The notes under the pieces: model-generated
The model's database searches: none
What the model was told of the DNA's origin: nothing
What the model saw: the letters and a program-made list of their open reading frames with translations, nothing else
Source: Brachionus manjavacas
Lineage: Eukaryota; Rotifera; Eurotatoria; Ploima; Brachionidae
NCBI GenBank assembly: GCA_019054805.1
Contig: JAHQIY010000001.1
Span: forward strand, 5,098,501-5,162,500
Direction: 5' to 3'
DNA: 64,000 nt
Translations under genes and position numbers: made by a program
Shown here: positions 1-24,058 of the stretch, piece by piece
Position numbering within the stretch: position 1 is the stretch's first letter
Layout: each line of letters begins with the position of its first letter

Positions 1-9
1 TTACCATAC

Positions 10-180
10 CTTGACCACCAAACAAGCTTCTGGAATATATTTCTTACTTCTAGTCATCATTTTTTGTGCTTGTTTTTGTTGATAATCACGTACATTTTTT
101 CTTATACCCAATAAAGAATGAGTTATATCGATAATATCATCAATAGGAAGATCTTCGTTTGATGGCTCTGGTTTGACCAT
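10..180 (-). CDS. First coding exon of an unrecognised gene (partial, runs off the left edge)
   Basis: The minus strand has an ATG at 180-178 followed by 57 open codons. It ends at a GTATGG donor at 9-4, in phase 0; read through, a stop follows two codons later. The encoded N-terminus is acidic for about 20 residues (MVKPEPSNEDLPIDDIIDI), then becomes basic and glutamine/lysine rich (RDYQQKQAQKMMTRSKK) and looks helical. There is no signal peptide or membrane segment. I do not recognise the family. The next exon would lie to the left of the window. A short open exon with a clean donor and balanced composition in AT-rich DNA argues for a real exon, but chance cannot be excluded. Confidence 0.5.
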
Positions 181-877
181 TCTACAAAATTTTCAAAATT
201 ACTAGTATAAAAGCAAAACTTAATTTTATTCCTATTTGTTTTACATTTTTACTGGTAGACTGGTAAATTTACAAATTAATTTGTTATAGAAATTTACTGT
301 TGCATTTATAAAGAGAGAACTGTTTTTTATTTTTTTTTAAATCCTTAATAATCCTCAAAAAGTCCAAAAAAAAATTTATGATATTGTTTATTTTAAAATA
401 TATATTTAAGAAATAAATCTTTTAAAATAAAAAAACGAAAAAAAAACTTTCTAATTAAACTTTGAATATAAATTGCAACAAATTAAAAAGATAAACTAAA
501 GAAAAGAAAAAACTAAAAAATGATAAAAAAAAAACGATTGCAATTATTAAATAATAACACTCTCTATTTCTCTCTCTCTCTTTCTATGTGTCTCGTCGTC
601 ATCGTCATCAATATCCCAAACAATCAGCAGTTCATTTTGCACATATTTATATTTATATAGAATAAAAAAGCCCAAAAAAAAAGAATAGAAAAAAGAAAAA
701 AATTCTTTTTTCTTTAGAAATTTTTTAAAGTTGGAAACAAAAAAAAAGCAAAAAAAAAAAAAGAGTTTAAATAAATGTACAAGTCGTCACTGTGTATGTA
801 AGCATGTATGTTTGAATGAATGAATGTATGTATGGAGTCGATTGAGATCAATATTTGGCCGTGGTCACTGCGCGGGT
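181..877. other. Intergenic or 3' UTR, low complexity
   Basis: This is AT-rich sequence between the first exon of the left-edge gene and the stop of the first homeobox gene. It holds poly-A tracts and a CT microsatellite at about 560-585. Part of it (about 640-877) is probably the 3' UTR of the homeobox gene, which is transcribed leftwards. No other gene was seen. Confidence 0.6.
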
Positions 878-2156
878 CTATTCACTATTCGAGCTCATGT
901 CATGACTGAACGACTTTTCCTTGGACGACTTTTTGGTCTTGTATCGGTGATTCTGGAACCAAATCTTGACTTGGGTGGGCGTCAAATTGAGGCCCGATGC
1001 CAAGTGCTCGCGCTCCTGCGCACTCAAATACTTCTGCATTTTGAACCGCTTCTCCAGCTCGTACACTTGAGCCTGCGAGAACAGCACTCGCCTCTTTCGC
1101 TTCGACTGATACGGATACTGGGACAATTGGCTCGAGTAGCTCGAGTACGACTTGATGTTCTCTTGATTCATGCTGTTGGACGATGTGGACGAGCTCGACG
1201 AGGCGGACGACGTCGACGACGAACACTTGGGCACCATCAGCTGACTTGCCGAAGAGTTCGAGGCTGCCGCAGCGGCCGCCGCAGCCGCCGACTGGTACTC
1301 GTCCGCGCTGTTCAAAAACCTCGACACTTGAAGAAAAAAAGAATTAATTTTTTAATCCAGCATGGTCAACTAAAAGAGATGAATTACTGGTGAAGCGGGC
1401 ATCGTTGGGATTTGAGTACCACGTGGAGGTGTTGGCGTACTGTAGGTGAGCGTACGAGTCGGACTCGTTGGCACAGTAGGGCGCCGAGTTGTAGTAGTGA
1501 GAGTAGGAGTTGGCGTAGTGCGGCGTGGTGGCGCCGACCAGCGAGTTGGAGAACTGATTTGAAGCGTAGTTGAAGTAGGGGTTCTGGATGGAGGTGGGCG
1601 ACGGCTGCACTACGCTTGGCGAGAAGGAGTCGGGCGAGCCGGCCGGCTGGTAGCCGCACATGTTGCCGTGAACGCCCAGGCTCAGCGGCGACTCTTGCTT
1701 GACGCTGAGCGACGACGACGACGACGAAGTGGTCGACGACGGCGTGCTAGATGAGCCGCCGCTGCCGCCGCCGCCGCTGCTGCCACCACCACCGCTCCCG
1801 CTACTGTTCATGTTCGTTCTGTTCGTGTACGATTGAAAGTCGAGCTGTTGTTGCTGCTGATGCTGATGCTGCTGCTGTTGCTGGTGTTGGAGAATTTGCT
1901 GGTGTTGCTTGCGATAGGAGTCCTCGAGGACCGGGTTGAGGAGGTTGGTGACGTTGAATGCCGTGTTGTACTTGGGACTGAGGGCGGATATGGCGGCCGC
2001 GTAGTCTGCACTGTTCAAGTGATTGTGCAGCAGATTGAGATGCTGTTGGTGCGAGGCGGCGGCGGCGGCGGTCGCGGCGTCGACCACCGTCGATTGTTGG
2101 TGCAAGTGGTGAGCGGACACTGGCACTGCGTTTCGATCGCACTCAGGGTATAGCAT
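878..2156 (-). CDS. NK2.1: NK2.1/Nkx2.1-type homeobox transcription factor, paralogue A
   Basis: Two coding exons: 2156-1388 and 1326-878, joined over a 61 bp GT..AG intron (1387-1327) in phase 1, giving 405 residues. The C-terminal NK-2 homeodomain (about residues 331-390) has the recognition helix [13 protein letters not shown]. Tyr at homeodomain position 54 (QNHRYK) is the mark of NK2 proteins that bind CAAGTG-type sites. The N-terminus has a TN/eh1-like repressor motif (FNVTNLLNP) followed by EDSYRK, and [17 protein letters not shown] before the homeodomain, both as in vertebrate Nkx2.1. Long Gln/His, Gly/Ser, Ser and Ala runs lie between. The exons are much more GC-rich than their surroundings. 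The family patterns forebrain, foregut or neurosecretory tissue. It is divergent from paralogue B. The start is the first ATG of the open frame. Confidence 0.93.
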
Positions 2157-4569
2157 TATCTGTTTGAGAGTGTGTGTGTGTGTGTGAGTGAGTGTGTGAG
2201 TGAGTGGTAAGAGGATTGTGGTCGCGCGTGCTCAACAATGATCCAGAGTCGTTTTTGAACAATCTAGAATAGAAAAATAGCAAATTCGCTTTTTGTTTAG
2301 CCAACAACAAAAAGAAAAATTTATATATATATATTTAGAGACAGAGAGAGAGAGCGATAGAGAGTGAGAGAGAAAAAGAGAAAGAGAGAAAAAAATAATA
2401 AAATAGAAAAAAAAAATTTTTCAATGGATAGTTTAAGATTTTATTTTAGATTATGTAAATTAGTCGAGTTGGTTCGATTGGTTGAGGCGTTCGAAGCGAA
2501 CATATCTGATTGGTTGTGTGTGTGAATTGTTGGAATGGTTGAGCGCTGCGCTAAGCTCAGCCCTGCTAAGCACAATCGACCAATTAGAAATTAACTTTGG
2601 TTTTAAAATGCCAACAGAAAGATTTTCTCTTTTTTTTGTGTGTGTGTGTGTGTGTATGTTGCAAAGGTAAATTTTAAAACTGTTAATTTATCTAAATGGC
2701 ATTTTTCGTATTTTTTCTCTTTTTCTCTCTCTCTCTAAACTGGCAAATATTATAAAACCACTTGAAATTTAAAATCGAAAAAAATTAGAAAGAGAAAAAA
2801 AAAGAGAGAGAGAGTTTAGAGAGAAGCCCGCGCAGAATATTAAGCAATTTGGGTAAATTTAGTTTAAATAAACTTTTAGAACGCCTCGAATTCATGTCAA
2901 CTCTAATCCACTAGCTCTTGAGAATATTTAGGTTTCTAGAAATGCCCAATAGGCCAGACCACTTCAACACACACACACACACTAACTTCATAATTGATCC
3001 TCCACTTCTTTCCATCCATCCATTCAAGCCTATCTATTAATTACACAAACAAAAAATTTATCAATTAATCTTATTATGAAAAAAAAAATTTTATTTTTAT
3101 TCCAAAACTTAAAATGACAAAAACTGCAACTCATTTTTTGCATCTCTGATATCAGTCTTTGCGTTTTGTTTTTGCTAAGACCTTTCGGTTAATTTTCTTT
3201 CATTTCTCTGAATACTTCTGATTGTGGAACCTGCACTATCCTCTAATGCTCACTTGATACAGGTCCTTTAGACGTTGAGTAAGTTTGATATGTATTTTAA
3301 GGCGGTGGTAGCAAAAGAACTGCCAATGTGTGCACACAAATGCTTTAAATAAATTTTCGCTTTACATCTGATTCAGACCTTAGACAAATTGAGAAAAAAA
3401 ATTCCTTAAAAATTTCAATTGACTCAAAGTGGGCAGACGCACAAACTATTTATATAGTCGTGTGTGAGTGAGTGAGTGTGTGTGTGTGTGCTGGATAATT
3501 ATGGTGGTCATTGCACAACAACAATGTTGTTGTATTGACTATTAGGTAATGTTATCGATTAGCGTACAATGTCATACTGATATTGATAGTTTAATTAAAA
3601 ATAAAGCTAAACAATTTTGCAAATGCTATAATTGCTGTTTGGCTTGGATGGACAGCCAACAAAAAATGTGTAAACATTGCACTATCTATTTTAGAGTCGA
3701 GTTGCTCGTGCAAGTGTTTTTTAGTTTGGAGAAATGCTCGAGTTGATGTCATTTGAAGAGGACAAGGTATTGTCTCACACACATACACACACACATGCCA
3801 ACTAATTACTCGGACCACTTTTGTTATCTAACAAAGATAAAGAAGCATTTTTTGTTGCCCTTTTTTTGCTGCTATCTGTTGCTTGCTTTTTTGCTGTTGG
3901 TTGTGGTTGTTAATTAAAAAATTTAATATAGTTTATCTAGTTTGGATAGTAAAAATCAATAAATTAATTGCATGTGATCAAGCAATAAAATGTTTAGCTA
4001 GGCACCATATAATAACTCTTGTTTGTTTACCTAACTCATAACCTCAATCTCTCATAATTCTGCAACACTATGGCCTAGCCTTTTTCACATATAAAAGCAC
4101 AACACAATAACTAAGCACTTCATTTGAATGAGTGCTGAGTTAGACTGTACCTGTGCACCATTGGGCGCATCTTTCTCTCTCTTCCTCTCTCTCTCTATCT
4201 CTACATTTATATTTATGTATATGTCTCTTTCTTTATCTGATTGTAATTTTTGGATTGGTTGAATTTTTGGATTGGCTGCGCTCAAAGCGACCAATCAGCC
4301 TAGTGCATATTTTAATTAATTAAAAAATATGACAAATCGAGCTCATCGACGAATTAACAAACTTCAAGTACTTGGCTTCAATTCTTTTCTTTTGTTAATT
4401 CTAGTCGATTAATTCTTCTCGGCAATATATACTTCCGTCCGATCGTGAGCCGATTTGCCATTTTCTATCACTTCACTACTTCAATAAGCCTCCACTTCCA
4501 CTTTCTGCAATTTTTTATTTCATTCTTTTATTAACTATTTAGCCAAAGAAAGAAAGAAGCCAGTCAGCA
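2157..4569. promoter_or_regulatory. Shared 2.4 kb upstream region between the two divergent Nkx2.1 genes
   Basis: No convincing coding sequence. It contains (GT)n/(CA)n tracts at about 2168-2204, 2637-2656, 2970-2982, 3458-3490 and 3777-3797, a GA-rich block at 2338-2390 and CT/GA blocks near 2720-2740 and 2805-2822. Sites resembling the Nkx2 core (CAAGTG or CACTTG) lie at 2758-2765, 3251-3257 and 3711-3716, and the perfect palindrome CAAGTACTTG is at 4365-4374, about 200 bp before the start of paralogue B. An inverted repeat ACAACAAC-AAT-GTTGTTGT is at 3515-3533. Both genes must take their proximal promoters from here; that these sites act is inference. Confidence 0.55.
4365..4374. promoter_or_regulatory. 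Palindromic Nkx2-like site CAAGTACTTG
   Basis: A perfect 10 bp palindrome containing the CAAGT half of the Nkx2.1 recognition core on both strands, 195 bp upstream of the paralogue B ATG. It is a candidate auto- or cross-regulatory site; function is inferred only. Confidence 0.3.
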
Positions 4570-7500
4570 ATGTCAACAAGTCCCTTTAGCAAGTATCAGA
4601 CACCGGGCATGCCGTTCATGGTCAGCGACATACTCAACCCGGTCGCCGACACCGATTCCTACTACAGAAAAAGTGTGCACAACTCGTACTCGTCGTGCAC
4701 GCCCTCACCCTCCATCCACAGTCCGACGCGGTCGCACGATCCGGCCCTTGCCTACCAGCTCACGCCGCCCAGCTCATCTAACATATCGCCCACTCACTTC
4801 ACCGCCTCCTACAACCAACACTACTACTACGCCAGCCATGAGCCCATCTACCACGCCACCACCGAACATCCTTACCAAACTCAAACACCACAAACCACGA
4901 CCAGTTGGTACGAGCCAGCACATTTCGACTCTCGTCATTTAGCAAGTATTTAAGCCATTTTCTTTCTTTACTTTTTTTTTTTTTTTTTTTACATTTTTGC
5001 TCTTAAATAAATCTAAAAGTTAAAGAAGAAAAAATGTCGTTGTGAATATTTATTTAAAATTATTTGTAAATTAATGTGCTGAAGTGACGATGAAACCTGG
5101 AGTCAGGAACATAATGAAAATTTGTCGAGGCCCCTTCAAAATAGTAGATGACTAGATGATTAGCTAGCTTTCAAGTATCAAGAATGTATATCTATGTGCC
5201 AGCATTAACAAGTCATAAGACTGAACATTGAGTGCTTTTTGTAAAATTGAAAATTTCTCTTGACTATCACAATCAAGAGTATAGGATTTTATGATGACAA
5301 AAAAAATTAAATTTACATCTAAAAAGTGAATGAATGTACCCTGTTACTGTTAGCAGAACAAACACAGTATATATTTTAAAAGTCTTGTCGAATAATCAGG
5401 ATTAATCTCTTTTTCTAAAATTTGGATGAATAATTAATTGACAAAATGTTTATGCAAAAAAACAATTTTATCATTGTATATACAATTTTTCAATATTTAT
5501 TTTTTATAAAATTTAAATTAACAAACACAGTTATTATAAGAAAGACTAAATTTCTAAATTCTTACTGACTCAAGTTTTTTTATTTTTTATTACATCGCCA
5601 GAATTGGCGTTAATTGAATTAAATAAATAAATAAATAATTTCCATTCCCAATCTTGTTAATAATACTCCAAAACTCGTGTGCTTAGAACACAGGCTTAAT
5701 AATTAAGGCTTGCACTGACGCCTCTTGTGGAGCTTAGGACCAGTTTTTATTTGTTTGTAACTAATCATGAACTAAGGCGGCAGTAAGATAGCGAGCCATT
5801 GTGCCATCAGCTCGACTAGGTCATAATTGTGGTGTAGATGATCAACTCGGTGCAGTAACCTCTGAGTCAGATGGAAGCTGTTGCTCAAAAAGGCACTGGA
5901 AAAGCGACAAATAATTGTAATGAGTTCAAGTTAGAAGAAGAATGAAATTTGCATTTGTGCATCATCATCATTTCTTTGGTTTTGTGAAGTACAGTACAAA
6001 AGAACACAGTGTGGCGTTTGAGTATGTTGCATCATGTTGCATTCACAGAGCTAGTTGTGGAATTATTGGAAAAGAATTGTACTCAATTATAAATCATGAA
6101 AACCCTTGTATTTTTGAATTCTTTATTATTCACATCAATTGTACATAACAGACTTTGAATCGTTATGAACTGTGTGAGGATGGCATTGCTTGAATTTTTT
6201 TTTGAATTCATTGCAAATAATTGATGCCTTTTTCAAAAAAAAAAAAGAATAAGAAACACTCTTTTTTCCTAGGATTTTCTTTTCTTTACTTTTCTCCATC
6301 GGCTCGGTGTCCACTGATCAAATAGAATGAAAGTGTAAGTAATTCAAATTTAATGTAATGTTTTGATGAACTTTATTCGAAATTTTAATCTTTTAATTAA
6401 TTGATACTTGTTGTAAATTAAATTAAATAAATTCAGTAGCTGCACATATTGAGAATACAAAAAAACTTGGGACTAGAGAAACCAAACTTTAAAGACTAGC
6501 TAATGGTTCAGGCTCTAAAGCTTGTGTGGATGATTGTTAGCGTTCATTGATCAAAAATGCACCTTTGTATCAAATAATTATCTTAACATGAGAGCGTGTC
6601 AAGGGGACTGCAAATAATGAGCTCTAATTCAGAAAAGTTCTGTTATAAGCAAAAATATTGAAAAAGTGAACTACTACTGCTGCTATTATGTTTCAAAAAT
6701 TTTAGCTAATTACCATCAACGACTTGACATTGAACATTACAAGTGCCAATTTTTTTTTTCATTTTTTTTCACTTTTTTTTTCTTGACAATTTCGTCAAGG
6801 CATAAATTGAATACAGAGTTGCACTGAGAGCTTTTTTTGTTTTTTTATTCAAAGTAATAAATCAGACCAAATCTTGGGTGCTTGGAATGCATACTTGGTC
6901 CTTCGTTTCAGTCACATGATTTTGAATTAAAAATAGCTGGAAATCTAAAATGAGACGATAGCTTGGAGAGCTTTTACTTGTTGCTATTTAAATTATAGTC
7001 TGGTTACGGCTGGGTTAAGTGTGCCAATTAGCATATATTAAAAAAATATTAAACAATATTAAAAATAATATTGTGCAGTCTCAGTCCGTCAAAAAAAGAA
7101 AAGTTTTTCGTGCAAATTATAACAAATATAGTTTTGGAATTGCCCAGGCAGGTTGGAATGAATCTTAGTCCTTTCTTTCAGTCGAATGTTAATGAGGATT
7201 TGATTTTTTCAAAAAAAATTTTTTTTAAATTTTATAAATTTCAAAATTTTAATTTCTACAGAAATTAATTTTTTTCATGCGTAAACAAAAAAAGAGAAAA
7301 AAAAACAAGTGATTATTTGTAATTGAGAGTTTGTTTATCTTTTGCGTTCGGCTGAAAGTAAGTTTGTCGGCTTAGAACACAGGAAAATAGTCAATTACTT
7401 GATACAAGCAATTATGAGCTTTGTGTGTTTGGCTTTGCCATCAAATTACAGGCAATTAAGAGATTATATCAGTCTTTGAGTTGAAAAAACAAACTTTAGT

Positions 7501-8103
7501 CTACATAATGATTTAGTTTATCTTTCTTTGTCGATAAAGATAATTGCCCATACTTTGCTTTATTGTTTGTTATAAGTGTGCTCTTAAAGCAAACATAGTT
7601 ACGTAAGCCAAATAGCTTTGTCAAACTATGTCAAGTGTATTGTAGTTAAGAATCGATTTTGTAGTACTTTAGTGATACAAACACACTAACTGATTGCGTA
7701 ATTTTAAGTGTCGAGATTTTTGGGCTCGTCACCAGCGGACTCCATGAGCCAAACAAGCCAGGCACACTACTTGCACAAAATGAACAGTCCCAACGAGCTC
7801 AAACCGAGCGTCAACTCTTCGCCACTCGCTCACACATATCAATTCGGCAGCAGCTATGCCAACTGCAGCGGTGCCATAAAGCGAAAGCGTCGCATTTTGT
7901 TCAGCCAGGCTCAAGTGAACGAGCTCGAGAGGCGATTCAACAAGTCGAGGTACTTGAGTGCGCCTGAGCGCGAAGTTCTCGCCAACGACCTGCATTTGTC
8001 GCCCACACAAGTCAAGATATGGTTCCAGAATCACCGATACAAGACCAAAAAAGCGCTCAAGGACCGCATCAAAATGGACCCAAATCCTTACCACAACTAC
8101 TAG
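4570..8103 (+). CDS. NK2.1: NK2.1/Nkx2.1-type homeobox transcription factor, paralogue B
   Basis: Two coding exons: 4570-4945 and 7709-8103, joined in phase 1 over a 2,763 bp intron, giving 256 residues. The N-terminus starts MSTSP, then has the TN/eh1-like motif [10 protein letters not shown], very close to the vertebrate Nkx2.1 start, and [19 protein letters not shown] before the homeodomain. The homeodomain is at about residues 182-241 with recognition helix [13 protein letters not shown]. By hand count it matches paralogue A at about 45 of 58 aligned positions. It differs in helix 1 (QVNELE instead of QVYELE), so it looks the more derived copy. It lacks A's long Gln and Gly runs. A poly-A signal AATAAA is at 8300-8305. 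The intron sits at the same codon and phase as in paralogue A, which shows common descent by duplication. The start is the first ATG, giving the conserved N-terminus. Confidence 0.93.
5591..5640 (+). repeat. Hairpin element with (AAAT)n tail, copy 1
   Basis: TACATCGCCAGAATTGGCG forms a CGCCA/TGGCG stem with a GAAT loop and is followed by (AAAT)n. A second copy on the minus strand lies at 63252-63312 with one paired-compatible change in the stem. This looks like the 3' end of a LINE or SINE family. Confidence 0.5.
5752..5912 (+). mobile_element. SINE-like repeat, copy 1 (diverged)
   Basis: From about 5808 to 5906 it aligns with the copy at about 17292-17400. Both contain ATTGTGGTGTAGATGATCAA, then CTC-G-TGCAGTA, CCTCTG-GTCAGAT and GTTGCTCAAAAAGG in the same order and spacing. 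The left part, where copy 2 has a tRNA-like head, is too diverged to assign. Confidence 0.6.
5978..6060 (+). mobile_element. Relic of the MITE family found intact at 54101-54461
   Basis: It starts GGTTTTGTGAAGTACAGTAC followed by AAAAGAACA, matching the terminal inverted repeat of the intact element. It then has GTTGCATCATGTTGCATT-CACAGA, matching the inner part of the repeat. The second end was not found, so it is a decayed or truncated copy. Confidence 0.5.
6878..6935 (+). repeat. Short dispersed repeat, copy 1
   Basis: TTGGAATG-AT-CTT-GTCCTT-TTTCAGTC is shared with 7138-7200 and, on the minus strand, with 12176-12255. The family is unidentified. Confidence 0.4.
7138..7200 (+). repeat. Short dispersed repeat, copy 2
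   Basis: CCCAGGCAGGTTGGAATG followed by TCTTAGTCCTTTCTTTCAGTC. It is the best match to the minus-strand copy at 12176-12255, which shares CCAGGCAGGTTGGAA. Confidence 0.45.
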
Positions 8104-8867
8104 TTTCTGTTTTCAATGCACGAACCTAAACGCACCTAGTCGACATTGTACTTCTGTACATACTCTTTTTTTTGGTTCCTCTCATTTTTTTTCGTTAATT
8201 TATTTTTAGATGGTTTAATTTGATTTGAAGATTAAAAATACAGTAATTTTTTTTTGTTAATTTTAATATTTTTTTTGTTTAATTATTGATTATATTTTGA
8301 ATAAAATTAATCCACTCAAGTTTTGTTTCTTTGCTACTCAAGAGCCGTTTCTAAGAAGTTTCCGCAAATTAGACTCTTCAGCAATCTAAGCCAATTATTT
8401 GAAAAAGGGCTTCTATCAATTAATAACAATCCAAATAAATCACTAAAAACTTAGTTTTATTTATTTATTTATTTTTGCATTAAACAAATAATTTAGAAAT
8501 TTAAATTTGATGACAAAAAATTAAGCACTCTTTCTCTTCGACGTCGACTTTCAATGGCTTTAATTAAATAAGTAGAAATAAATTGAAATATACTCAATTT
8601 ACAATAGATATAAAAATTGATTAGAAAAAATGTAAACTAACATATTGGGGCATTCAAATCAGCTCAAAGATACGGAACCAAGAATGTTTCTGCATTAAGA
8701 GTGTTCCGTATTGATACTTAGCTATTTTGTCAGAGAAAGAACATTTTTGATTGCATTTTTGTCGATTGATTTTTAATATTTTAAACATATTGTTATATAA
8801 TTTAGAGTAGCTGAAAATATGTTTTTTTTTTAGAAAAATATAAAAAACATCTCTTGAGATTTAAAAT

Positions 8868-8965
8868 AATAATAATGATAAAAAATAAGCCACGGCAAAG
8901 ATGCTTGCGGAGATGCCTTACAAGGAAGACATCTATGGTAGCTGGATGCATTGAAATCTAGTTAC
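8868..8965 (-). mobile_element. LINE 3'-end relic
   Basis: On the plus strand it reads (AAT)n, then AAGC-A-GGCAA, GCTTGC, and ATCTATGGTAGC, in the same order as 56890-57085. The orientation is therefore minus with an (ATT)n tail. It is too short to code. Confidence 0.4.
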
Positions 8966-11900
8966 AAATACAAAGTTATCAATAGTTTTCTTTTTCATTA
9001 TAGGCACATTATATCTGTAAATTATAAAAAAAAATTCTATAACTTAATTAACTGACTCATGTCTCTCAACATCGAGTGTATTTATTTGCTCAAGATTTAA
9101 TTTGGAAGTTCTGCAGGCTTAGCCTCTCTTAATATCAATCAGAGAAGTTGGACGCGATGGACGTGAAAATAAAATAAAAATTAGAACAATTTGCCACAGG
9201 AGGCAAGAAATATTTTTCTACACTTTTTAATGCCAAGCTTTTTTCAAATTGAGAGCTTTTTTAAGAGATTTTATTTATTTTAAAATTTTGCTTTAAAGAT
9301 TCAAAATAAAATTTTTATATTACCTTTAGGATGTTTTATCAATAAAAAAATACATAACTTTCAAGACATTGCCTTTGCGTCTTTAGAGTTTTATGATAAA
9401 AATTGAAATTCAAGAAAAGAATTTTACAATCAAATTTATCATTCAGTTCTTTTAATTAAATAAGATATGCAACATTTTTTTTTTTTTCATTTTTTTTTCT
9501 CTTTTTGAAATTCATAATCACATGAACTCACTATCATGAGGCTGAAAAGAATTCCTGGGGTCATTCCAAACAATCTGTGAGATAAATAAAATTAAACTTT
9601 TAAAACACATTTTTAAATAAAAAAATTTTTTTTGATAAAAATTGAAATTCAAAAAAAAGAATTTTTTCCTTTATTCTTAAAACTAAATTTTTTTTTATAG
9701 ATTTACCTCTAGGACCCAAAAAATATAAATAGAACTATTAGCTTTGTCAATTTTATTCATTTTAATTAAGTTCTTTATTTTTTTTAAATACTTAATAAAA
9801 ACAACAGCACCATGTCCAAACAGTAAGGACTTTCAAATGAACTTTGGGCTGACTCAAAGTTATTTCTTAAAAATGATAATCAGAATTATTGGTATTTTTA
9901 TTAATTGTTCCAATGTGTTAATTCAAAATGTTATCATTTAAATTTTGATTGAAAGATTAAAAAAAATTTACTTTATTATATAAAAAATTGGAAAAAAATT
10001 AAAATTAATTAATTAAGTTTAGTTATCGACAATTTTCAGGCTTGTACTTGTTGTCACTGATTATGATATAATTAAAAACAATCGATTAGCTAATATGATA
10101 GTTTTTATTAAAATTTTAGATTAGATAAAATAAAGGACTCGATTGCAACTGGATTTTGTCAAGAGATTAAAAATTAGAAGAATTTTTTAGTTGCCACTTT
10201 TGTTTGAAAGCTAATTCTCTTCAAAGTTCAAATATGCCTTTGTCTTTATATTCAGGTTTTTAAGAAATAAATTTCCAAGTGGCTTTAGAGTAATCAAATT
10301 TTAAGTAGCAAGAATTACTCTAGAGTGTTTTTGTTTTTTTATTCTAAATGACATGAAAGTCTATCGAAATACTCAATCATATTCCGAAGTTTTAGACAAG
10401 CATTCCAAACTATCCGGGATATTTTCCTGACAGTTGTCAAAAATTCACTTCTTAAGTGTTTTTTTTTCATGAGATAAATGGTCATCTGTAACAAAAAATT
10501 CAAGAGGTATTCAATTGTAAAAAGCAAGTTTTAAAATTAAATTAAAAAAAAGGACTGCTAGTGAGTCGAAGCGAACTAAGCGTCATGTAGAAATTAAATG
10601 TAAGCTAAAAATATAGAAATTAATTTTCCGTTTTAGCATTGATGCGTCAGGAAGCTTTTAGCGAGTGGCACTAAGAGAAGGTGAATTAGCTACGGAAGCC
10701 ATTAGACAAACTAGATTTTAGTGACAAATTGAATTCAATTAGCTAAAATTTAGTCATTAGACTAAGAGAGCTCGTAGTAACCAGCTGCTTTCCATTGGGA
10801 ACTATTGCAATTTACCTATTTTCTAGTTCAATTGGATACCAAGCTTTTTCCATTTGACTAATTGTTCAAGTTCAATCTGCATCATACGGATTAGGGATTA
10901 GATTAATGCAGCTCTATTACCCGCTGGTTATGAACAACTAAATTAATTATTTTTGTAAATAATCTCTATTTTCTAATCAAGAGATTTGATAAAAAAAATA
11001 TTTTATTTAAACTTTGAATTGATTTTGAAGAGGCCTCTTGAAACCAAAAAAGCCTCTAACTAAACACAAAATAATATTAAATAATTCACATAGTTTTCGA
11101 GTGCTACAGATGACGAGGATAATGACGAAGACGATTTTAATTGCATAAAAAAGACACACACGATCAATTATTATTTTCTTGCTCAATATTTAATATTTGC
11201 CGTTAAGGGCACTTAATAATTTTGTTGATGAAATATTTATGTAGAAAAACAAAAATATTTTCAAGATATCTCAGGTGTTTGAAAAACAATCCATGAAACA
11301 AAATCCGACAATGCTTGAGTGTTTAGTTAAACTAAATAAATTTTTCAATCAAATAAGACATTTAAGCTTAAAAGGGAATTCAAATAATTTTCTAGCTATA
11401 TTTACAGCCCATTTTCTTAAAATGATCTGACATCAAAAAAAAAACCCTTGAAAAATCAAATTATTCAAGATTAATACACTTTTTTTACAAATAAATAAAA
11501 AAATGCTCAATCTTAGTTTTTTTTTCTAGATCAACAAAAATAAAACTGTCCGACACAAAAAGGGAATTATTTCAAATTATTCTTTAAAATATATTAATAA
11601 ACTAAAAAAAAATTATAAATTTTATCGTTAAAATTTTATACATAAATTCTCATCAAACATTTAATTGATTGAAATTGTTTAGATAATGTAAACTTAATAT
11701 TTTTATGATCATAACATAATAAAAAATTATTTTATCTAATAAACTAAATTTTAAAGCCTAATCTAAACAACAGTTTCAACATTTAGCCAAGATAAATAAA
11801 GTCAAATTTTTATTATTTTTAATAATTATCATCCAAGTATATTTTTTTCAAATGTCAATTCTTGGCAAAATGTTGTGCTCGTTGATAACTTAATTGAAAA

Positions 11901-12175
11901 ATATGAAAGAACAACTTTTTTACATATTTTTTTTATTTAATAAAAAATGATAAAAAATCAAAAAAATCATATTATCACATACAAATTATTTTTATTTTTA
12001 TCCAATTTTATTCGATCATCTAAATTTATATCAATTTTTCTTTTTAATGCGGGCTCAAACGAAGGTCTTGAACCATTCGGACGTGCCTTGGGGTCACCCC
12101 CTAAATTATTTAAAAAAAAATAAAATTATAACGATACAACTATCACATAAAATTTTATTTCAATTACTTTTATTT

Positions 12176-12255
12176 ATTTCTATTTATTTTAAATAAAATC
12201 TCTTTATTTGGCTGACAGGAAGAACTAAGCTCCGTTCCAACCTGCCTGGGGGTTT
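12176..12255 (-). repeat. Short dispersed repeat, copy 3
   Basis: The reverse complement reads CCCCCAGGCAGGTTGGAACG, then CTTAGTTCTT and CAGCCAAAT, matching 7138-7200. Confidence 0.4.
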
Positions 12256-13271
12256 CTCAAACTATATTTTTTATTAATAAATATTTGTTAAAAAATCTCC
12301 GAATCTGGAAAAAATCTTTTTAACTTAAAAAAAATTCTTTTATATTATTAATTATTAATAAGTATTCCCTTGTTCGATTATGCCGCACAAACCAGGATAC
12401 GCTTTTGGATCATGCACCAAAGTAAATCTCGCCCATGCTAAGACATTTTTGATTTAGAACGCAGGGTGTGAAAGTATTATCACGGGTTAAGGGCCTCATC
12501 GAATTCTGAAATTATAAATTGAATGCGTTATCAAGACTTGATTTTAAGACAGATAATAAAATGAACTTTTTTTTTATTTTGCATTATGTGCAGCACCAAG
12601 AATTAAGAAATTAAAATATTAGAAAAATTAATTTTTTATTTATTGTCTTAAAATTATTATTTTTTTATTGATGTTCACAAACCCGGCATGATTTGGTTTA
12701 TCACAGATTAAGTGAATATTTGATCAAAAATCGAACATGACCCAATTTAATAAATTTCGGCTATTCAAAACTTGCCAATTTAAATTTCAGATTGAGAATA
12801 AGCAGCAAAAAAACCTGAAAATTTTTTTTTAAAGTTATTTTATTCATAAATATATATACAATAACTAATTTTACTCCCATTTCATATTCTTTTGAAAACT
12901 TCTTATATTAAAAATAAATAATTTCAAAAATGTTATTTCTTTATTAAAATATCTTTAAAAATTTTTGACATTCTAATTGATTCTTCAGAGTGTGTAAGTT
13001 TATTTAAAATGATGAATGCAAATTTTTATTTCTAATTTTTCAGCTTTAAAACGAGTAATAATTATTAAATTATCTTTTTTTACAAACAAAAATTGCTTTT
13101 TAAAAACCATTTAATTTTGAAATTTTATTAATTAACAAAATACAGAGAGCAAGCAACAAACTTAATTTTAATAAGACATTAGTTAAAGCAAATGCAATCC
13201 ACTTCGTTTTTTTGTGTGATTAATCTCCTAGGTTGGACTTTTTAAGAATGACAACGAACATTGGAAAAGTC

Positions 13272-13849
13272 TTTTGACAACAAAAATCTGGTTTTCACAA
13301 CCAAAAAAATTCTAGATCAAAACTACTAAAATTTTTATAAAATCAATTTTATTTTAATATACACACAAAAAAATTTCTCATTACACACAAAAAATAATGA
13401 ATTAGGAGTCTAATTTTATCTAATTCACCAAAATTGTAACAATCTCTATTGACACAAAATCCATATTTTTGGCGCATTTTGTGGTTTGACCGATGCTTAC
13501 ATATTGTACAACCAAATTTGACTTTGGGTAATGAATTATTATTATTTTTTGATGCTCTTTAAGCATAAAAGTTAAATTCTTCAAAAAATTGTTTCAAGTT
13601 CAAAATTTAGAATTTTTGGCATTTTATGAAATTTGAAATTTAAGATAATATTTATAAAACAATTGTAAGAAATAAAATTCATGTACTTTTTTTTTAATTT
13701 TTTTTATTTTTTATTCATGTGAAATATTTTTTGTAAAAATTCTCAATGCACACAAAAAAAAAATTTTCACAACCAAAAAAAAAATTTTTAGATGTTGTGT
13801 GTGAAAATCTGTTTTTTGGCTGTAATGAGCAGATTTTTGGTTGTCAAAA
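13272..13849. mobile_element. Putative foldback/MITE-like element
   Basis: The left end TTTTGACAACAAAAATCTGG (13272 on) and the reverse complement of the right end, TTTTGACAACCAAAAATCTG (up to 13849), form imperfect inverted repeats of about 38 bp. Inside are repeats of TTTTCACAACCAAAAAAA and ACACACAAAAAA. Target duplications were not resolved. Confidence 0.35.
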
Positions 13850-14310
13850 TACTAGACCCAACGAGCATTTACTAGAAATGAACAAAAGAAACTTATTGTG
13901 TTGAAAACTACTTAAATCCATTATTTTTGAAAATACCAACACCAGGTATAAAACATATGAAAAATTTGCATGACAATAGCTTTTTAGTGTTCATATTAAC
14001 ACAAAAGAAAACTTCCTTCCTGAAGAAGAGAATTAAAATACCTTTTATAAGTGGATTGTTGAAATAAAACGAAATAAATAAAATAAAACTTTAAACAAAA
14101 AATCATGGCAATTATTTTGAACATTTTAAAAAATAAAAATTTAATTGATTTAGTTGCGTCAAATAATTTTGGTCACCTTTGAATGAAAAAAGAACGATTA
14201 AAATTTTTATTAAACAAATTTTCGAAAAGTTTTGATAAATTTGTAATACAAAAAATATCTAATTATCTGAAATTATTTATTGGAATATTTTATTCGAAAA
14301 TTTATTTAAA

Positions 14311-15891
14311 TTAATTTTTTTTAATTTTTTTTACTGAATCACTAACAAACTCTTTTATTTGAGTTTCCTGCATTAAAATAGCCACACATGTAAATCCGAA
14401 GACCACAGCTCCGACCAAAAAATGGCATGTAAAATTCTGTGCCAAATAATGCTCGCTCATTTTAGTTAACAACAAACCACATAGGTAAACACATGCTAGT
14501 TTTAAATTAGGAATAAATCCGCAATAGATATCATAGTTTACCACGTCGGATAAATACTTTTCATTTTTAAACTTAAAACCCTGAAAAAAATTTGCTATAT
14601 AAACTGAACTGAATACTATTCTGACTAGCATATTGAGGCAATTGGCCACCAAAAATCCATAAATCCAAAACACATTCACCGATAAGAAATTAAATAATAA
14701 GAATAAAATTGAAAATAAAACCAGTCTGTAGTTGTGCTTGTTTATTTCACGCTGAGACATGGTAGCGTTGAAAAATCCCTCCGTTAGTCCATTAATGCCC
14801 AGTAGATAAATGTACACGCAGTGAAAGCGGAGCAGATTTATGCACAAATCGTTTCGGCCCAGTTTGTCACCACCATAAATTTGCAGCAGCAATTTTGAAT
14901 ATGACTGACCGAATACCAGAACCAGCAGACCGATTGTGCTCAAACTTTTCAGCAAAAATTCAAAATAGGACTTTGATTTTGGGTTCATTTGATTTTTAAA
15001 TTGTACACCTCTTTGCAAAGAGTTGGTAAAGTAAACATAGGAAGCGTCTTCTATTGGCAAAAATACAAATCTGGCCAATAAAGAGCCCAAATTGTTTACT
15101 ATATCGTAAACACCTGACTCACTGTAAGACATTAGGTTGAAAAAAGTTATCAAATATCTTTCGCCTTCGGTCAAAATTTGTTTAAACAGCGACTGGGCGC
15201 AGTATGCTCTGACCAGTTGAAGATATTTGGTGTCAAAATGAACTATTGAATTGGGCAGCAAGGATTTCAGAGTCAGATTGGGTTTTTGTTTGAGAATAAA
15301 GTAAAAATTGGATGCTACGAACAGGATAGAATTGACAAAGCGAGCTATTGAATAGGACAGTGCACCAAGTTGTGGAATATAGATGGCCAGGCATATGAAA
15401 ATTAAGTTAAAAATAAGCAAACAAGACGCCTCGATTATGACTCTAAGCTTTGCTAGAAAATACATTTGGCTCAGAGCGTAGCTCGGCTCTCCGACAAGCT
15501 CGATTAAACACGAACAGCAAAGTAGAATAATCGAGAAGTCGTAGTTTTTTACGGTCAATTGACTCGGCTTTTCGAAAAAATTCCACAATGTGCCGAAAAA
15601 TAGAGAAATAACAAAACCGCTTGGAATTACTAGCCATAGAGAATTGATGAATTTGTCGAATTGTTTTACATCTGACATGGTTGGCAAGGCTCGCCGAAAG
15701 GGCTCTCTGGACAAAAACATCACTGTGGTATAGAGCAGGGCTAAACGAAAATTGCAGGCGCCAATCAGATCCGTGTGGACATTACGATATAGCACTGCAT
15801 TTAGCACAAAACTTAGCAGACGGAACGCCAACTGCAATATCATGTTGTATGATATTGATTTGAACAAGAACGACTCCAGTTTCTCGCTCAT
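14311..15891 (-). CDS. RFT1: RFT1 homologue, ER lipid-linked oligosaccharide translocation protein
   Basis: A single exon of 526 residues, close to the usual length of about 540. The N-terminus carries the RFT1 signature: MILQLAFRLLSFVLNAVLYR, then FRLALLYTTVMFLSREPFRRA with the conserved SREPFRRA block. About a dozen hydrophobic spans follow, as expected for a polytopic ER membrane protein of the MOP/MATE-like fold. RFT1 is required for Man5GlcNAc2-PP-dolichol to reach the ER lumen for N-glycosylation; whether it is itself the flippase is debated. The C-terminus ends with a lysine-rich KKIKK tail, compatible with ER retention. The ATG at 15891 gives the expected N-terminus. No intron is needed. 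The gene is isolated, with 3 kb of repeat-bearing DNA upstream. Confidence 0.93.
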   Translation of the reverse strand: MSEKLESFLFKSISYNMILQLAFRLLSFVLNAVLYRNVHTDLIGACNFRLALLYTTVMFLSREPFRRALPTMSDVKQFDKFINSLWLVIPSGFVISLFFGTLWNFFEKPSQLTVKNYDFSIILLCCSCLIELVGEPSYALSQMYFLAKLRVIIEASCLLIFNLIFICLAIYIPQLGALSYSIARFVNSILFVASNFYFILKQKPNLTLKSLLPNSIVHFDTKYLQLVRAYCAQSLFKQILTEGERYLITFFNLMSYSESGVYDIVNNLGSLLARFVFLPIEDASYVYFTNSLQRGVQFKNQMNPKSKSYFEFLLKSLSTIGLLVLVFGQSYSKLLLQIYGGDKLGRNDLCINLLRFHCVYIYLLGINGLTEGFFNATMSQREINKHNYRLVLFSILFLLFNFLSVNVFWIYGFLVANCLNMLVRIVFSSVYIANFFQGFKFKNEKYLSDVVNYDIYCGFIPNLKLACVYLCGLLLTKMSEHYLAQNFTCHFLVGAVVFGFTCVAILMQETQIKEFVSDSVKKIKKN

Positions 15892-18800
15892 TTCTTTAAG
15901 AACAAAAAAAATAAATTAATATTCTCAAAAAATAAAAAATTTTTTAATTAAAAAAAAATAATGATCCAGATTTCTTGTACATTTTAGACTTTTAATATCG
16001 TTGTTGGTTAAGATACCAATTTCGACAATATAAAAGACCAGCAGGCTAAATTAAGACAACAATTTGTTTTTTGTTTATTAATTCATTTTAATTTTGTTAA
16101 TAAAAATTATTAATTTAAGATATTTATTTATTTTTATTACTTTTTTTCAATTTGTTTCCCTTTCTTACCAAAAATATCTAAATTTAAAGAAAAAAATCAA
16201 CCAAATTTGAAATTTTTTAAACTAATTAGTGAATTGAATTGACAATAAATATCAATATTCTAGCATAAATACAGTTTTTTAAATTTCCATGTATTACTTT
16301 AAATATGGCAAAATATCTTAAAAAAAGTAAATTCATCAAAATCAAGATTAGTGCAAAATCAATCTTAAATTTTTTCAAAAAATTTTGCAATTTTTGATTT
16401 TTTTACTTAATTAACTAAAGACAGCTTAAAATTACGAAAATTTTCGTAAATTCCTGATTTTCTTTTTTTTGGAATTAATAGTATTTTACGCAAATTTTGG
16501 TAAATTTGCATTAAATCAATTTGTTTGGTAATTTTATATTCACGTAAATTTAAAGAAAAACAATTAAATGTCAAAAAAAAATTTAGATATTTATCTTTAA
16601 ATTAAGCAGTGGTTGGAATCATTGGAATAAATAAGGTAAAAATTAGATTTTTTCTCATTAAAAAATCTCAAGTCTCGTTTGACATGTAATAAACACAGCA
16701 ATTATTTCTAGCTTAATCTGGGAAGAAAACATTAAGTTTAGATTTAAAATACTTGAAATATGTTTTTGTTTCTATGCAGAGTTGCGTTGAAGTTATAAAT
16801 TAATCATTTTTTAATTTTACATTATTTTTTTTGATATTTTAGTTAAATTTTACTTCAAATTTTTAATGATAATATTTTATTTTAATTCCTTATATTCAAA
16901 ATGGCTATAAACTGAAATTTCTTAAATACTATTTTTTGTAAAATTTTAGTTAACAGCTCTTTTATTCTATCTATTTGAATAACCCTTTTAATGTGTCTAA
17001 TTCTATCAAAAAAGAACGATGTATAGACATTCAGAATATTAAAAAGTAAAAATTCTTTTTGTACTTATTGTAATTTAATTTAGTATTTTAATTAATCAAT
17101 TGTTTAGTTATCTATTTAAATTTTAATTAATAGTTCTAATCTCTAATCTAAAACGTATAACCGGATGGCTTGCGTGTTAGTTATGCAAGCAGGGGATCGA
17201 GGGTTCAAAACCTGCTGAGGGTGAAAAAATCTTCAAAATATCTCTGCAATACGGGGCGAATGTATAAACCTCTTTCGTCATAAAAATAGGGGGACCAGTT
17301 TCGACTGGGTAATGATTGTGGTGTAGATGATCAACTCGATGCAGTAGCCTCTGTGTCAGATCGAAGCCGTTGCTCAAAAAGGTACTTGAAAAGTAGATGA
17401 GCGCCTCCCCATTATCCACTAGGATAGAAAAAGGGACGATTATAGTTAGAATCTAAAACGTACCCGAATCACTAAACCAGGGCTTCGCGCAGTTTAATTT
17501 TTACTGCTTTTATGTAAATTTACGTAAAATTACCAAAAAGACACTTACCAAAGCAGCACTATATATATTTATTCATATGAGATAATATGATGAGATAATT
17601 AAAATTTGAATTAAAAGAAATAACTTCATATTGCTTTATACATTGATTGACAATGAACTCATTTTAAATTTATGAATACTTTATTCTTTAGCATAAAAAG
17701 TGTCCTTATCTGTCCTGTTGTGTACTTTACCTTTACAATGCAAAAGCTTACTTAAAATAGGTCACAAAATTACCGAATATTCTACTTTCCAAGAAAAGTA
17801 CGAAAAAGGACACAAAAGGACACTTTTTGGACATTCGAGGGTAAAATTTGAAAAAAAGAAGTTTATTGTCTATAGCTCGTTTGTATCTAAAGAATGTATT
17901 AAATTAAAGTTTTTTTTAATTTTTATAATAAAGATTGCTTTTTAATTTAATTTTATTATACATTTTTAAACTGGGTAGTTTTTAGAGCTATTTTCATTAC
18001 CGGTACCATATATCAAGCAATTCTATTTATCTGATCTAGGAAAAACGGCGGATTATGCCTGGAAAATGGTTATATATCACAAACAACGCTCTTTGAGAAT
18101 ATATTTAACAGCATATTTAACACTCATATTTGAAGTATAAGTTAGTACAAGTTAATATTATCATTAAAGAAGAATCCAGAATATTTTAGAAATAGCAATA
18201 AATAGCAGAGAAAGAAATTATCAAATTGATTTAAAAAAAAAAGTATTGAATGGTGTTTTAATACCAAAAAATCATAATCAAAAGTCACTTGACAATTTTT
18301 TCATCAACTTATCTAATAAAATAATTGTAAAGAGTATTGCTTTTAAATGTCATTAATTATTGCTATTTTTACTATTAATTGCAGTTCAAGATTAGACAGT
18401 TACGTATTTTACTTTATGCCATCGCTTCTGGAAATAATTAGTTTACTCAAAAAAGATATCTTTAGAAATTTTTGATCTTGTTTCACCCATGATAGGAATC
18501 TTTCAAAAATGATGAAATTAAGAAATATTTTTTTTTTAAAAAACGAAATGTTTAAAAGAAAACTTCTCATATTGATTCAAATTTCAAATACTAAGTAGCA
18601 TAATTAATTTTAAAATTTCTAATTAAATTAAAACTAAAGCATTTTTTTGTCCAAAGAAATAATATAATTTTTATTAATTAATATAACTAGTAAATTATTT
18701 AAATTAGTGTCAGTAGTTCTTTGTAAAGTTATTAAAAAAAATCAATTAAAAAAAAAAATACCTGCACATTACTCTTCAAATTATGTCATTAAATTTTTTC

Positions 18801-20774: not shown

Positions 20775-23686
20775 CTAAGGTTTTGAAGATGTTGTAAAAA
20801 GATTTTGTTCCAATGGAGCTGTTAGCCACTGTCCAAAATTTTTCTCTTTAAAACATTTATACAAAATTAGCTTTGCCTTTTGATAATCCAAAGCCATTTG
20901 CTTAGCTTGGTTGTATGTCATTTGATCCAAATCATCTTCAACTTTCAAATTAATTTTTTTCTCTTTTGACAAGTTAATTAAAGAAATCCACATTTTAAAC
21001 ATTTCGTATTGACAAACTTCAGAATGAGTATCATCATTTTTTTTCCCAGTTTTACAATTTATAATTTCTATTTGCTTCAAGATGTCAGACCAAATTAGGG
21101 ACTTGGTGGATGGCTTGCTGGTTTGTCTCTGTAAACTGTTTGTTATGGAACTCAGAATTGGTTTATTAACTTTAAATGGTGAAGGCAAGTCTTGCTGGCA
21201 CTTGTCAACAAATTAATAAAACAAATGAAATGGTTAAACAAACCTACTTGGGATATTCGTGAAAAAAGCGCCCTGCTTAAATGATTTTTGTTATAAAAAG
21301 CTCCAATAATTATGCCATTAAAATAAACTGGTTCTATTAATTGACTGAGTAGTGCACCTTGTATTCCTAGTACATTGTATTTGCAAATTTTGTCCGAACA
21401 GGACATAACTTTGAGTCTATCCCCCAACATAATGCCATCCCAAGTTTGAATGTGTTCACAAGACCGAACAGGAATAGTTCCCATTCCTGACTCAATTTTG
21501 GTTCGCAGTAAACCTCTGACTTTTCGATTAGGATGGGAATCAGTAGACTCAGAGGCCAGATTGTCACTTATGGAAAATATGCGTGAGTCTCCACACGGCG
21601 CTGATGATATAAATAGATGAAAATTTACATGCTCCTTTAGTCTATACAAAGAATTATCAACATTTAATTCAAAAATGTCCGATGAAAAATTATTTTTAAT
21701 AAAATCCTCCAATTTAGCAAACAAATATTTTCTCAGAACCCGAACAGCAAGAATTTCAGCATGACAGTCATTCAAAGATGTGCCTAAAAGACTCATTTGG
21801 TCACCGCCAATGCATTTTGTACCAGTGGTAAGGCAAATTAATTTAGCAGTGTTAATATTCAAGCCGTTTGATTGAACTATGCCTGAGTATACATTCAAAA
21901 ATTTATTCGGATTGAACTCATTTTCTTCGCTTAGTTGCTCCACTAGTTCTTTGTATTTTTGGTTTATTAATTCGCTCACACTATCTGCAAATTCTTTAAA
22001 TTTGTTTCCAGTTTCTTCACTATGTGACTCGGAAATAGCAAGTTCAGTTTCTAAAAAAATTTGACAAATTTTAAATAAACGCTTTTTAAAATTTTCCAAT
22101 AAGTAAGATAACTTTTTTTAAGTTGGTTAAATAATTTACGGAAAGCTTCTAATTACTGATGCAATTAATTTTATATGTTTATTTTTATTTCAAATAAATT
22201 ATTTATTCTAGCTAAGTGAATACAAAATTAAAATTAAAAAAAAAGGAAAAATAAAAGAAATTCTCTTTTAAAGATTTAAAATTACAATAAACATTTTTAA
22301 TTCATAAAAGTGTGACTCGAGTGATTATTTACAAAAAAGATTTTGAGCGAGAACCGTCAGTTGGGTATCAACTGGTCTGCTTGGCTTGGACACTTTTTCA
22401 AAATATTAAATCACTTTCAGTTCTGAGAATTAAAGATATTTAAAATTTTTCATCCGTACTTAAAAAAATAGACAGTTGATGAATTTCAAAATTTTTAGTA
22501 TTACTTATTGTAAAATTGACCTTTAAAAATTAAATTTGAATATCTATTTTTAAACTAAATATTTTAAGTAAGTCAAAATACCAATTAAAATAATATTAAT
22601 TTAATTTTTGCCTAGCCAAATATTATCACTAAGTCACATTTCAACCTGTGAGGAATATTTTTAGATCCAAATTATATTCTAAATTATAAAAATAAAAAAA
22701 ATTCCTAGTAAAATTAAATTTGGAAAATTTTATTTACCTGAACTTGTGAGTTTGATATTGAATAAAATTTCGAGCAAATACTGAGCTGCTCTTGACTTGG
22801 CAATTTTTTTCGTAGTCCCAATTCCGAAAAAAATAAATTCATCCCCATCGTCCTTGAATAATGACAAGCTTTGGTGATCATTGCGCACCAAATTGGAAAC
22901 ATCAACTTTCAGTTGTAGTTTGCTCTCTAGGATCTCTTTTTTGTTAAGTCGTATTTCAACTTTAAAAGTTTTTGAATGTGATTGACCGGACTCTTCAATT
23001 AGATTGTCAGTGAAGGGCTTCTTTGGCAATAGATGATTTAGAATGGTAAGTGGATTTCTTGTAGCTATTATCTCTTTTGTTTTTAGATCAAACTCTGAGC
23101 TAGAGGAGTCATCTGACTGAGATCCGGGAAGATCTATCACCAAAGACGACTCAGACTCTTCAAACGATGAGACTGTAGAGTCGTCAAGCAAGTTTGCATC
23201 TAATTTATGAACTTGAAGCTCTATATCAATGAAATACTGAAAATGTTCTATTTCTTCAGGAGTAAAAAAGTCCGGCAACTTAATCAAATAGGAAATGGCT
23301 TTGAGTGAGGCGATTACTTTGGCAACTTTTTTAGAAGGCCCAGTGGAATAGAATGAGACTAAATTGCCTAAAATCTGAATATTAAGACAAAATCTAAATG
23401 TTGGTTTATGAGCTTGGCCTGCTTGGCAAATCAGCTCAAATTTGATGGGCTGAATTCGGGCTATTTCGTGTATGTATTGAATTGAATTTTTGTAATTTTG
23501 CGATACAGAGAAAGATTCTGGAGAAGTTTTTATTCTTTTGTTCAATATTTGGTTTAGATCCGAGTACTGGTCTAGTTTTCGTTTGGTTGCTGGTCCAGAG
23601 TCGATTGACATTTTCGATATTTTTCGCTTAAAACATGGGCTCTTGTTGGAAAATGCACTTGGAATCCGAGTCTTATGACAAAACAT
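20775..23686 (-). CDS. ADARB1-like: ADAR2-like double-stranded RNA adenosine deaminase
   Basis: Three coding exons: 23686-22738, 22050-21244 and 21190-20775, with introns of 687 and 53 bp. Phases agree and give 723 residues. There are two dsRBDs at about residues 66-136 and 211-309 (the second ends KKIAKSRAAQYLLE), then the A-to-I deaminase domain. Zinc and catalytic residues are present: His413 and the proton-shuttling Glu415 in DCHAEILAVR, Cys469 in APCGDSRIF, Cys534 in SCSDKICKYN. The C-terminal part (NKPILSSITN) follows ADAR2, not ADAR1; there is no Z-DNA domain. All hallmark residues are intact, so activity is expected. ADAR2 edits pre-mRNA in the nucleus. A later in-frame Met at residue 26 is an alternative start. 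Confidence 0.93.
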
Positions 23687-24058
23687 TTTAAAAATTAGTT
23701 AATCGAGATTTAATAAAAATAAGAGATAAAATATATGAATTTTTTTTAATACTTGGATTAACCTATATTGTCGTGATTAGGGGAGACTTATTTAAAATTT
23801 TTATTAAAAAGTATTTGGGCTAGTTACTCAATTTTGATACAGAAAAAAGAATAATTTTTTTTTTATTTTATTATCATTATTATGCTATTTTTCTTATATT
23901 TTATGATTTTGTTTTAGTTGCATATAAAATTCATTTTTTTGTCTTAGAATAATTACTATTCAATTTTAGATTGTCTTTTGAAATTTAAATGACTTAAATG
24001 TGTTTTAGGAAATAATATTTAGTAACTTGTCCAATGTATTACTTGCTATTATTTATTA
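23687..24058. other. AT-rich gap upstream of the ADAR-like gene
   Basis: The upstream region of the ADAR-like gene, ending where the LINE fragment begins. No element was recognised. Confidence 0.5.

Follow-up and report, generated by a model that had tools for sequence, protein, structure and literature searches.

Two head-to-head NK2 homeobox genes and their family

The window analysed here, a stretch of 64,000 bp from the rotifer Brachionus manjavacas (C1:5098501-5162500 in a genome assembly of 114.17 Mb and 61 contigs), contains near one end two predicted NK2 homeobox genes, A and B, in head-to-head orientation (Table 1). The 20-base guide-RNA targets for vasa and mlh3 of B. manjavacas given in Table 1 of PMC10395877 each have a single, mismatch-free match in this genome (2 mismatches allowed; 0 matches for the reversed patterns), which points to this species or a very close relative. 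Both genes were predicted from the genomic sequence alone; their stop codons end at positions 878 (gene A) and 8103 (gene B), and the predicted proteins comprise 405 and 256 amino acids, respectively. A preliminary description of this DNA had placed a head-to-head pair of Nkx2.1 paralogues at 878..8103 over an upstream region of 2.4 kb, and these coordinates proved to be exact, the start codons being 2,413 bp apart. The phase-1 intron that it had reported at the same codon was also recovered, as the Met codon of MSRFL is split in both genes. A and B are found at one locus and not at two, both being located on the same 12.1-Mb contig (C1). This single contig, the diverged sequences and the unlike introns speak against an assembly artefact and against two alleles, and both explanations were rejected.

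Both proteins display an Nkx2.1-type N-terminal TN/eh1-like motif with an extension ending in SY(K/R)K, a WY...MSRFL block upstream of the homeodomain, in which B has H where A has R, and an NK2 homeodomain with the residues H-R-Y at positions 52-54 (H52, Y54) and with FSQAQV and NHRYK, so that all the shared features listed in the preliminary description (the TN/eh1-like motif, the WY...(R/H)...M-SRFL block and Tyr54) are present in A and in B. YKTKK, MSRFL and LNPV are likewise common to both, and each protein ends 14 residues past the homeodomain. The corresponding N-terminal motif of human NKX2-1 is PFSVSDILSPLEESYKK, and its block WY...ISRFM. The SY-K/R-K end of the motif is absent from two further proteins of the same genome, L011 (FSVEEILKSDSEPD) and L012 (FSVENILATSHQ). 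When compared with solved structures in the PDB, A and B both had TTF-1/NKX2-1 (1ftt) as their best match (E 4.8e-29 for A and 2.8e-26 for B), followed by vnd (2e-28 and 1.7e-24, respectively), with NKX2-5 behind. The margin of TTF-1 over vnd is small when the homeodomain alone is compared. What decides the family, in our view, is the WY...SRFL block together with the N-terminal motif, and by these features A and B are of the Nkx2.1 type and not of the Nkx2.2 or NK4 type. The best matches to TTF-1, the Nkx2.1 motifs and the tree of motif plus homeodomain described below agree with the earlier claim of a duplicated Nkx2.1.

Two other assignments were considered and rejected. Membership in the Nkx2.2/vnd group would call for FTK/FSK.QT, which A and B lack; vnd is not the best match of either, and the tree of motif plus homeodomain also separates them from this group. 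Against NK4/tinman/Nkx2.5 speak H52 and R4, found in place of R52 (NRRYK) and P4. Vertebrate NKX2-1-type proteins possess a long C-terminal region with an NK2-specific domain. A and B, with their early stop, have no such region, and a search for three C-terminal patterns in the DNA downstream of the genes (B, 8104-14300; A, 877-1 and L040) found none of them. L011 and L012, the Nkx2.2-type proteins of this genome, extend much further past the homeodomain. In our view, a long C-terminus does not define the Nkx2.1 family across animals.

Table 1. Positions in the window of the predicted exons and introns of genes A and B, of the spacer between them and of CCAAT-containing sequences within it.
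Feature	Position	Strand	Basis
Gene A, exon 1 (start codon, N-terminal motif)	1388..2156	-	predicted from sequence
Gene A, intron (61 bp, GT-AG, phase 1, within Met codon of MSRFL)	1327..1387	-	
Gene A, exon 2 (SRFL, NK2 homeodomain, 14 further residues, stop)	878..1326	-	
Spacer between the start codons of A and B (2,413 bp, 33.5% G+C)	2157..4569	.	
CCAAT triplet, 325-428 bp upstream of the ATG of A	2475..2584	.	
GCGCTCAA-N24-ACCAATCAG inside the CCAAT-triplet region of A	2546-2506	-	
CCAAT triplet, 279-316 bp upstream of the ATG of B	4253..4298	.	
GCGCTCAA-N4-ACCAATCAG inside the CCAAT-triplet region of B	4278-4298	+	
Gene B, exon 1 (start codon, N-terminal motif)	4570..4945	+	predicted from sequence
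Gene B, intron (2,763 bp, GT-AG, phase 1, within Met codon of MSRFL)	4946..7708	+	
Gene B, exon 2 (SRFL, NK2 homeodomain, 14 further residues, stop)	7709..8103	+	

Copy number and inverted arrangement

The homeodomain of A was compared with the whole genome (E<=1e-5), and among 42 matches just four reached at least 70% identity, namely A itself (100%), B (75%), L012 (71%) and L011 (70%). The fifth-best match has 59% identity and Thr at position 54. By our arithmetic, two of four such loci would fall within 7 kb of each other in 114 Mb by chance with a probability of about 7e-4. L011, an Nkx2.2 gene, is located at C1:3.01 Mb, 2.1 Mb from the pair, and L012, a single-exon Nkx2.2-like gene, at C1:4.23 Mb, 0.87 Mb from it. 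L011 shows FTK.QT, as does L012, which has vnd as its best match, and in the homeodomain tree described below they group together (95/93) inside a five-member set with vnd, NKX2-2 and NKX2-8 (94/99). Because of this grouping, the genome is predicted to carry four such genes on contig C1, two of the Nkx2.1 type and two of the Nkx2.2 type. With Nkx2.2 at such a distance on the same contig, the view that the pair is not an Nkx2.1/Nkx2.2 cluster holds.

The frame of L012 (within L039, C1:4232500-4238000; positions 2604-1627 on the minus strand, 326 codons) contains an N-terminal motif and a homeodomain and no evident intron, and L012 is possibly a retrocopy of Nkx2.2. A diverged homeodomain with Tyr54 and Arg52 at C1:10399086-10399262 (plus strand), whose best solved-structure match is NKX2-5, is perhaps the rotifer NK4/tinman gene. 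Outside this genome, none of 21 pattern matches in genome contigs and none of 19 in viral contigs was confirmed as a relative.

Inverted repeats within 878-8103 number 147. Among the 25 longest, the top two are homeodomain segments (78% and 88% identity), the N-terminal motif ranks sixth (74%), and the remainder are mostly simple sequence. The homeodomain and motif repeats occur in mirror order, which is the pattern expected after a local duplication in inverted orientation, and this order on a single contig bears out the claim that A and B are paralogues in inverted arrangement.

Trees, upstream sequences and the origin of the pair

Two trees were calculated, one from the homeodomain alone (20 rows, including 9 provisional sequences) and one from the N-terminal motif plus the homeodomain (6 rows, including 2 provisional human sequences). 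The latter corresponds in its choice of sites to the phylogeny that had been proposed as a check in the preliminary description, and in it A, B and NKX2-1 form a group (96/95) apart from Nkx2.2. The expectation that neither paralogue is placed firmly with Nkx2.2 or NK4 is upheld by this tree, whereas the homeodomain alone does not reject B held with the Nkx2.2-type rows (approximately unbiased (AU) test, p 0.207). A and B appear as sisters in both trees with middling support (76/81 with motif plus homeodomain, 81/76 with the homeodomain alone), and the comparison therefore favours A and B as each other's closest relatives, as a rotifer-specific duplication would have it. Their branch lengths differ (0.57 for B and 0.28 for A in the tree of motif plus homeodomain), and the homeodomain of B is changed at the usually conserved positions N14, N21-K22-S23 and V33. 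Of 62 homeodomain codons compared between A and B, 32 are identical, 14 differ only synonymously and 16 change the residue.

The spacer was also searched for 12 sequence motifs. CCAAT, one of these, occurs 9 times (4.4 expected; 11/400 shuffles reach 9), and a CCAAT triplet is found upstream of each gene (Table 1). Both triplets at once were seen in 0/500 shuffles and each alone in 5/500. GATTGG, tried in the same set of motifs, occurs 5 times (0.8 expected; 0/400 shuffles). The upstream regions of Nkx2.2 and L012 contain two CCAAT each. These enrichments, together with the divergent layout over 2.4 kb, would be expected if one bidirectional regulatory region drove A and B in the same cells and so held the pair together. 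However, about 1.7 kb separates the two CCAAT clusters, which look like two promoters, NK2-type sites are not enriched in the spacer (CAAGTG occurs 3 times, a count reached by 62/400 shuffles) and 11 of 196 real 600-bp tiles carry a CCAAT triplet too, so that a single shared region is judged unlikely.

Within the triplet regions, GCGCTCAA precedes ACCAATCAG at both genes, and the two words face the same way when each region is read relative to its gene. A shared pair of this kind was found in 0/500 shuffles, and any such pair common to two real tiles in 27 of 19,110 comparisons (A against tiles, 1/392; B against tiles, 2/392). The 196 tiles comprise 92 from window position 8200 on, 69 from L038, L040 and L050-L052, and 35 that are the first 600 bp of loci among L001-L037, with L009 and L010, the pair itself, excluded. 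As L004/L037, L006/L033, L007/L026 and L008/L019 are the same DNA and L011 overlaps L038, some of the 27 tile hits may be self-matches. A genome-wide promoter type as the source of the shared words was rejected, as the composite pattern has 3 matches in the genome, two of them here by construction and the third on a Vibrio-like contig, within a gene for a histidine kinase. The arrangement of these words hints that the proximal promoter was copied along with the gene and that there are two copied promoters and not one shared. From layout and sequence, co-regulation of A and B is a candidate idea.

The gene models, their family, the mirror arrangement and the divergence of the copies are shown by the sequence, and the history that we consider likely starts from a single ancestral Nkx2.1 that would have been duplicated locally in inverted orientation, with its proximal promoter included. 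The products would be two head-to-head co-orthologues, each with its own promoter. TN/eh1-like motifs recruit corepressors, and both proteins would act as NK2.1-class DNA-binding transcription factors with an N-terminal TN/eh1-like motif and a short C-terminus. Both genes probably started out with one expression domain, the anterior brain and foregut in which nk2.1 is expressed elsewhere. They would since have diverged in part, with A as the conservative copy and B evolving faster.

Several observations weigh against this history. With 6 rows, a tree that joins A to NKX2-1 and leaves B outside is not rejected by the AU test (p 0.163), and with 20 rows the homeodomain-only tree neither recovers nor rejects a group of A, B, TTF-1 and scro (p 0.178), besides leaving B with the Nkx2.2-type rows as an unrejected placement. 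The A-B identity in the homeodomain (45/60) is close to that between B and TTF-1 (44/60), and that between A and TTF-1 is higher (49/60), suggesting that either the split of A and B is old or B has evolved fast. The reference rows are few and partly provisional, and comprise one rotifer genome and no other spiralian Nkx2.1. Upstream, the word pair was spotted by looking, its word length and span having been set afterwards, and shared 8-mers are unremarkable (2, with 1.1 expected; 86/300 shuffles reach 2). Because of the identity counts and the unrejected tree of A with NKX2-1, the duplication is possibly older than assumed. A would then be the bilaterian Nkx2.1, and B would be a separate NK2.1-like paralogue of ancient origin that rotifers retained and most animals lost. 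The head-to-head order would be ancestral or of later origin. We regard this older duplication as quite improbable, as the best trees unite A and B, as both share YKTKK, MSRFL, LNPV and an equally short C-terminus, and as the two Nkx2.1 copies of the annelid Capitella are, according to PMC4407770, also judged likely clade-specific.

B could also be a decaying copy with little function, in line with its shorter protein and longer branch, but its frame is open, its GT-AG intron boundaries, homeodomain core and N-terminal motif are intact and 14 of 62 codons have changed synonymously only, which makes decay very hard to believe. Beyond the inverted duplication of a single Nkx2.1 favoured here, a broader and distinctly tentative proposal would be an old, stably kept rotifer Nkx2.1 module, in which an inverted duplication copied a CCAAT-based promoter, enhancers in the spacer and in the 2.8-kb intron of B are shared, and roles in brain and foregut are split between the conservative A and the fast B.

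Comparison with other animals and further features of the window

Vertebrates possess NKX2-1 and NKX2-4, which arose by genome duplication, are unlinked and have long C-termini. They thus resemble A and B in being two Nkx2.1-class genes with the same motifs and differ from them in linkage and in the length of the C-terminus. The comparisons with other animals that follow draw on excerpts of the cited papers. Capitella teleta, a spiralian like Brachionus and of a different phylum, has two genes, Ct-nkx2.1a and Ct-nkx2.1b, whose expression domains in brain, foregut and hindgut overlap without being identical. The excerpt makes no mention of their linkage, and the word scaffold is absent from the text (PMC4407770). 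For Spirobranchus lamarcki, Nk2.1a, Nk2.1b and Nk2.1d are named, at least three copies and so more than in Brachionus; these come from a transcriptome, and linkage is not mentioned in the excerpt (PMC6118893). The chaetognath Spadella cephaloptera, a gnathiferan or near relative, has a single-copy nk2.1, in contrast to two in Brachionus, and the same paper refers to a study reporting nk2.1 expression for another rotifer, Epiphanes senta (PMC12852818). Nk2 genes of dicyemids are dealt with in PMC6543705. The copies of Capitella and Spirobranchus are exceptions to the single Nkx2.1 that the preliminary description had ascribed to most animals. Spiralian duplication of Nkx2.1 is therefore already known, while for an Nkx2.1 pair in rotifers and for the head-to-head layout no report was found among the results of searches of the open literature or in the excerpts cited here, closed journals and supplements lying outside the scope of the search.

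The NK2 (pharyngeal) cluster comprises xrn2, nkx2.1 and nkx2.2 (PMC11175523, PMC10726417), and xrn2 adjoins nkx2.1 in 6/6 spiralian genomes examined (PMC11175523). In Brachionus, Nkx2.2 is on the same contig as the pair, yet 2.1 Mb away, and the sole XRN_N match of the genome is located not on C1 but on another contig (C25:664628-665398, L049). The zinc knuckle of this match presumably marks it as XRN2. None of the 9 PAX matches of the genome is on C1, and 4 of 24 forkhead matches are on C1, none within 1.4 Mb of the pair. Because the XRN_N gene is on C25 and PAX is absent from C1, the ancestral pharyngeal-cluster neighbourhood looks broken, and what is left of it is that the NK2 genes are still loosely linked across some 2.1 Mb.

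Cross-animal comparisons commonly rely on Nkx2.1 to mark the anterior brain and foregut, and if Brachionus has two such genes, a single-gene probe may miss some of the pattern. The duplication is genuine, though modest as an example among developmental genes. It could serve to test how tightly linked duplicates share out their roles, and gene editing has been published for Brachionus manjavacas (PMC10395877).

The closest recognised neighbours of the pair are, to the right, Rft1 at 14311-15912 and, some 4.4 kb beyond the left edge of the window, a gene for carnosine N-methyltransferase. No Pfam family was matched by a short open frame at 1-189 (minus strand). Further to the right, adjacent frames at 20775-23698 (minus strand) contain a double-stranded RNA-binding motif and a domain of the adenosine deaminase (editase) type, a combination that is found in RNA-editing enzymes of the ADAR type, and frames at 24026-24496 (plus strand) and 44146-44592 (minus strand) resemble, by eye, fragments of retroelement reverse transcriptases. 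A full-length U11 spliceosomal RNA (36221-36359, minus strand, 79 bits) suggests the presence of the minor spliceosome. Elsewhere in the assembly, contig C42 (328,915 bp) carries bacterial genes at about 249-252 kb (L055, L056), one of whose proteins shares 98% identity with a protein of Vibrio europaeus, and C42 is probably a contaminating bacterial contig.

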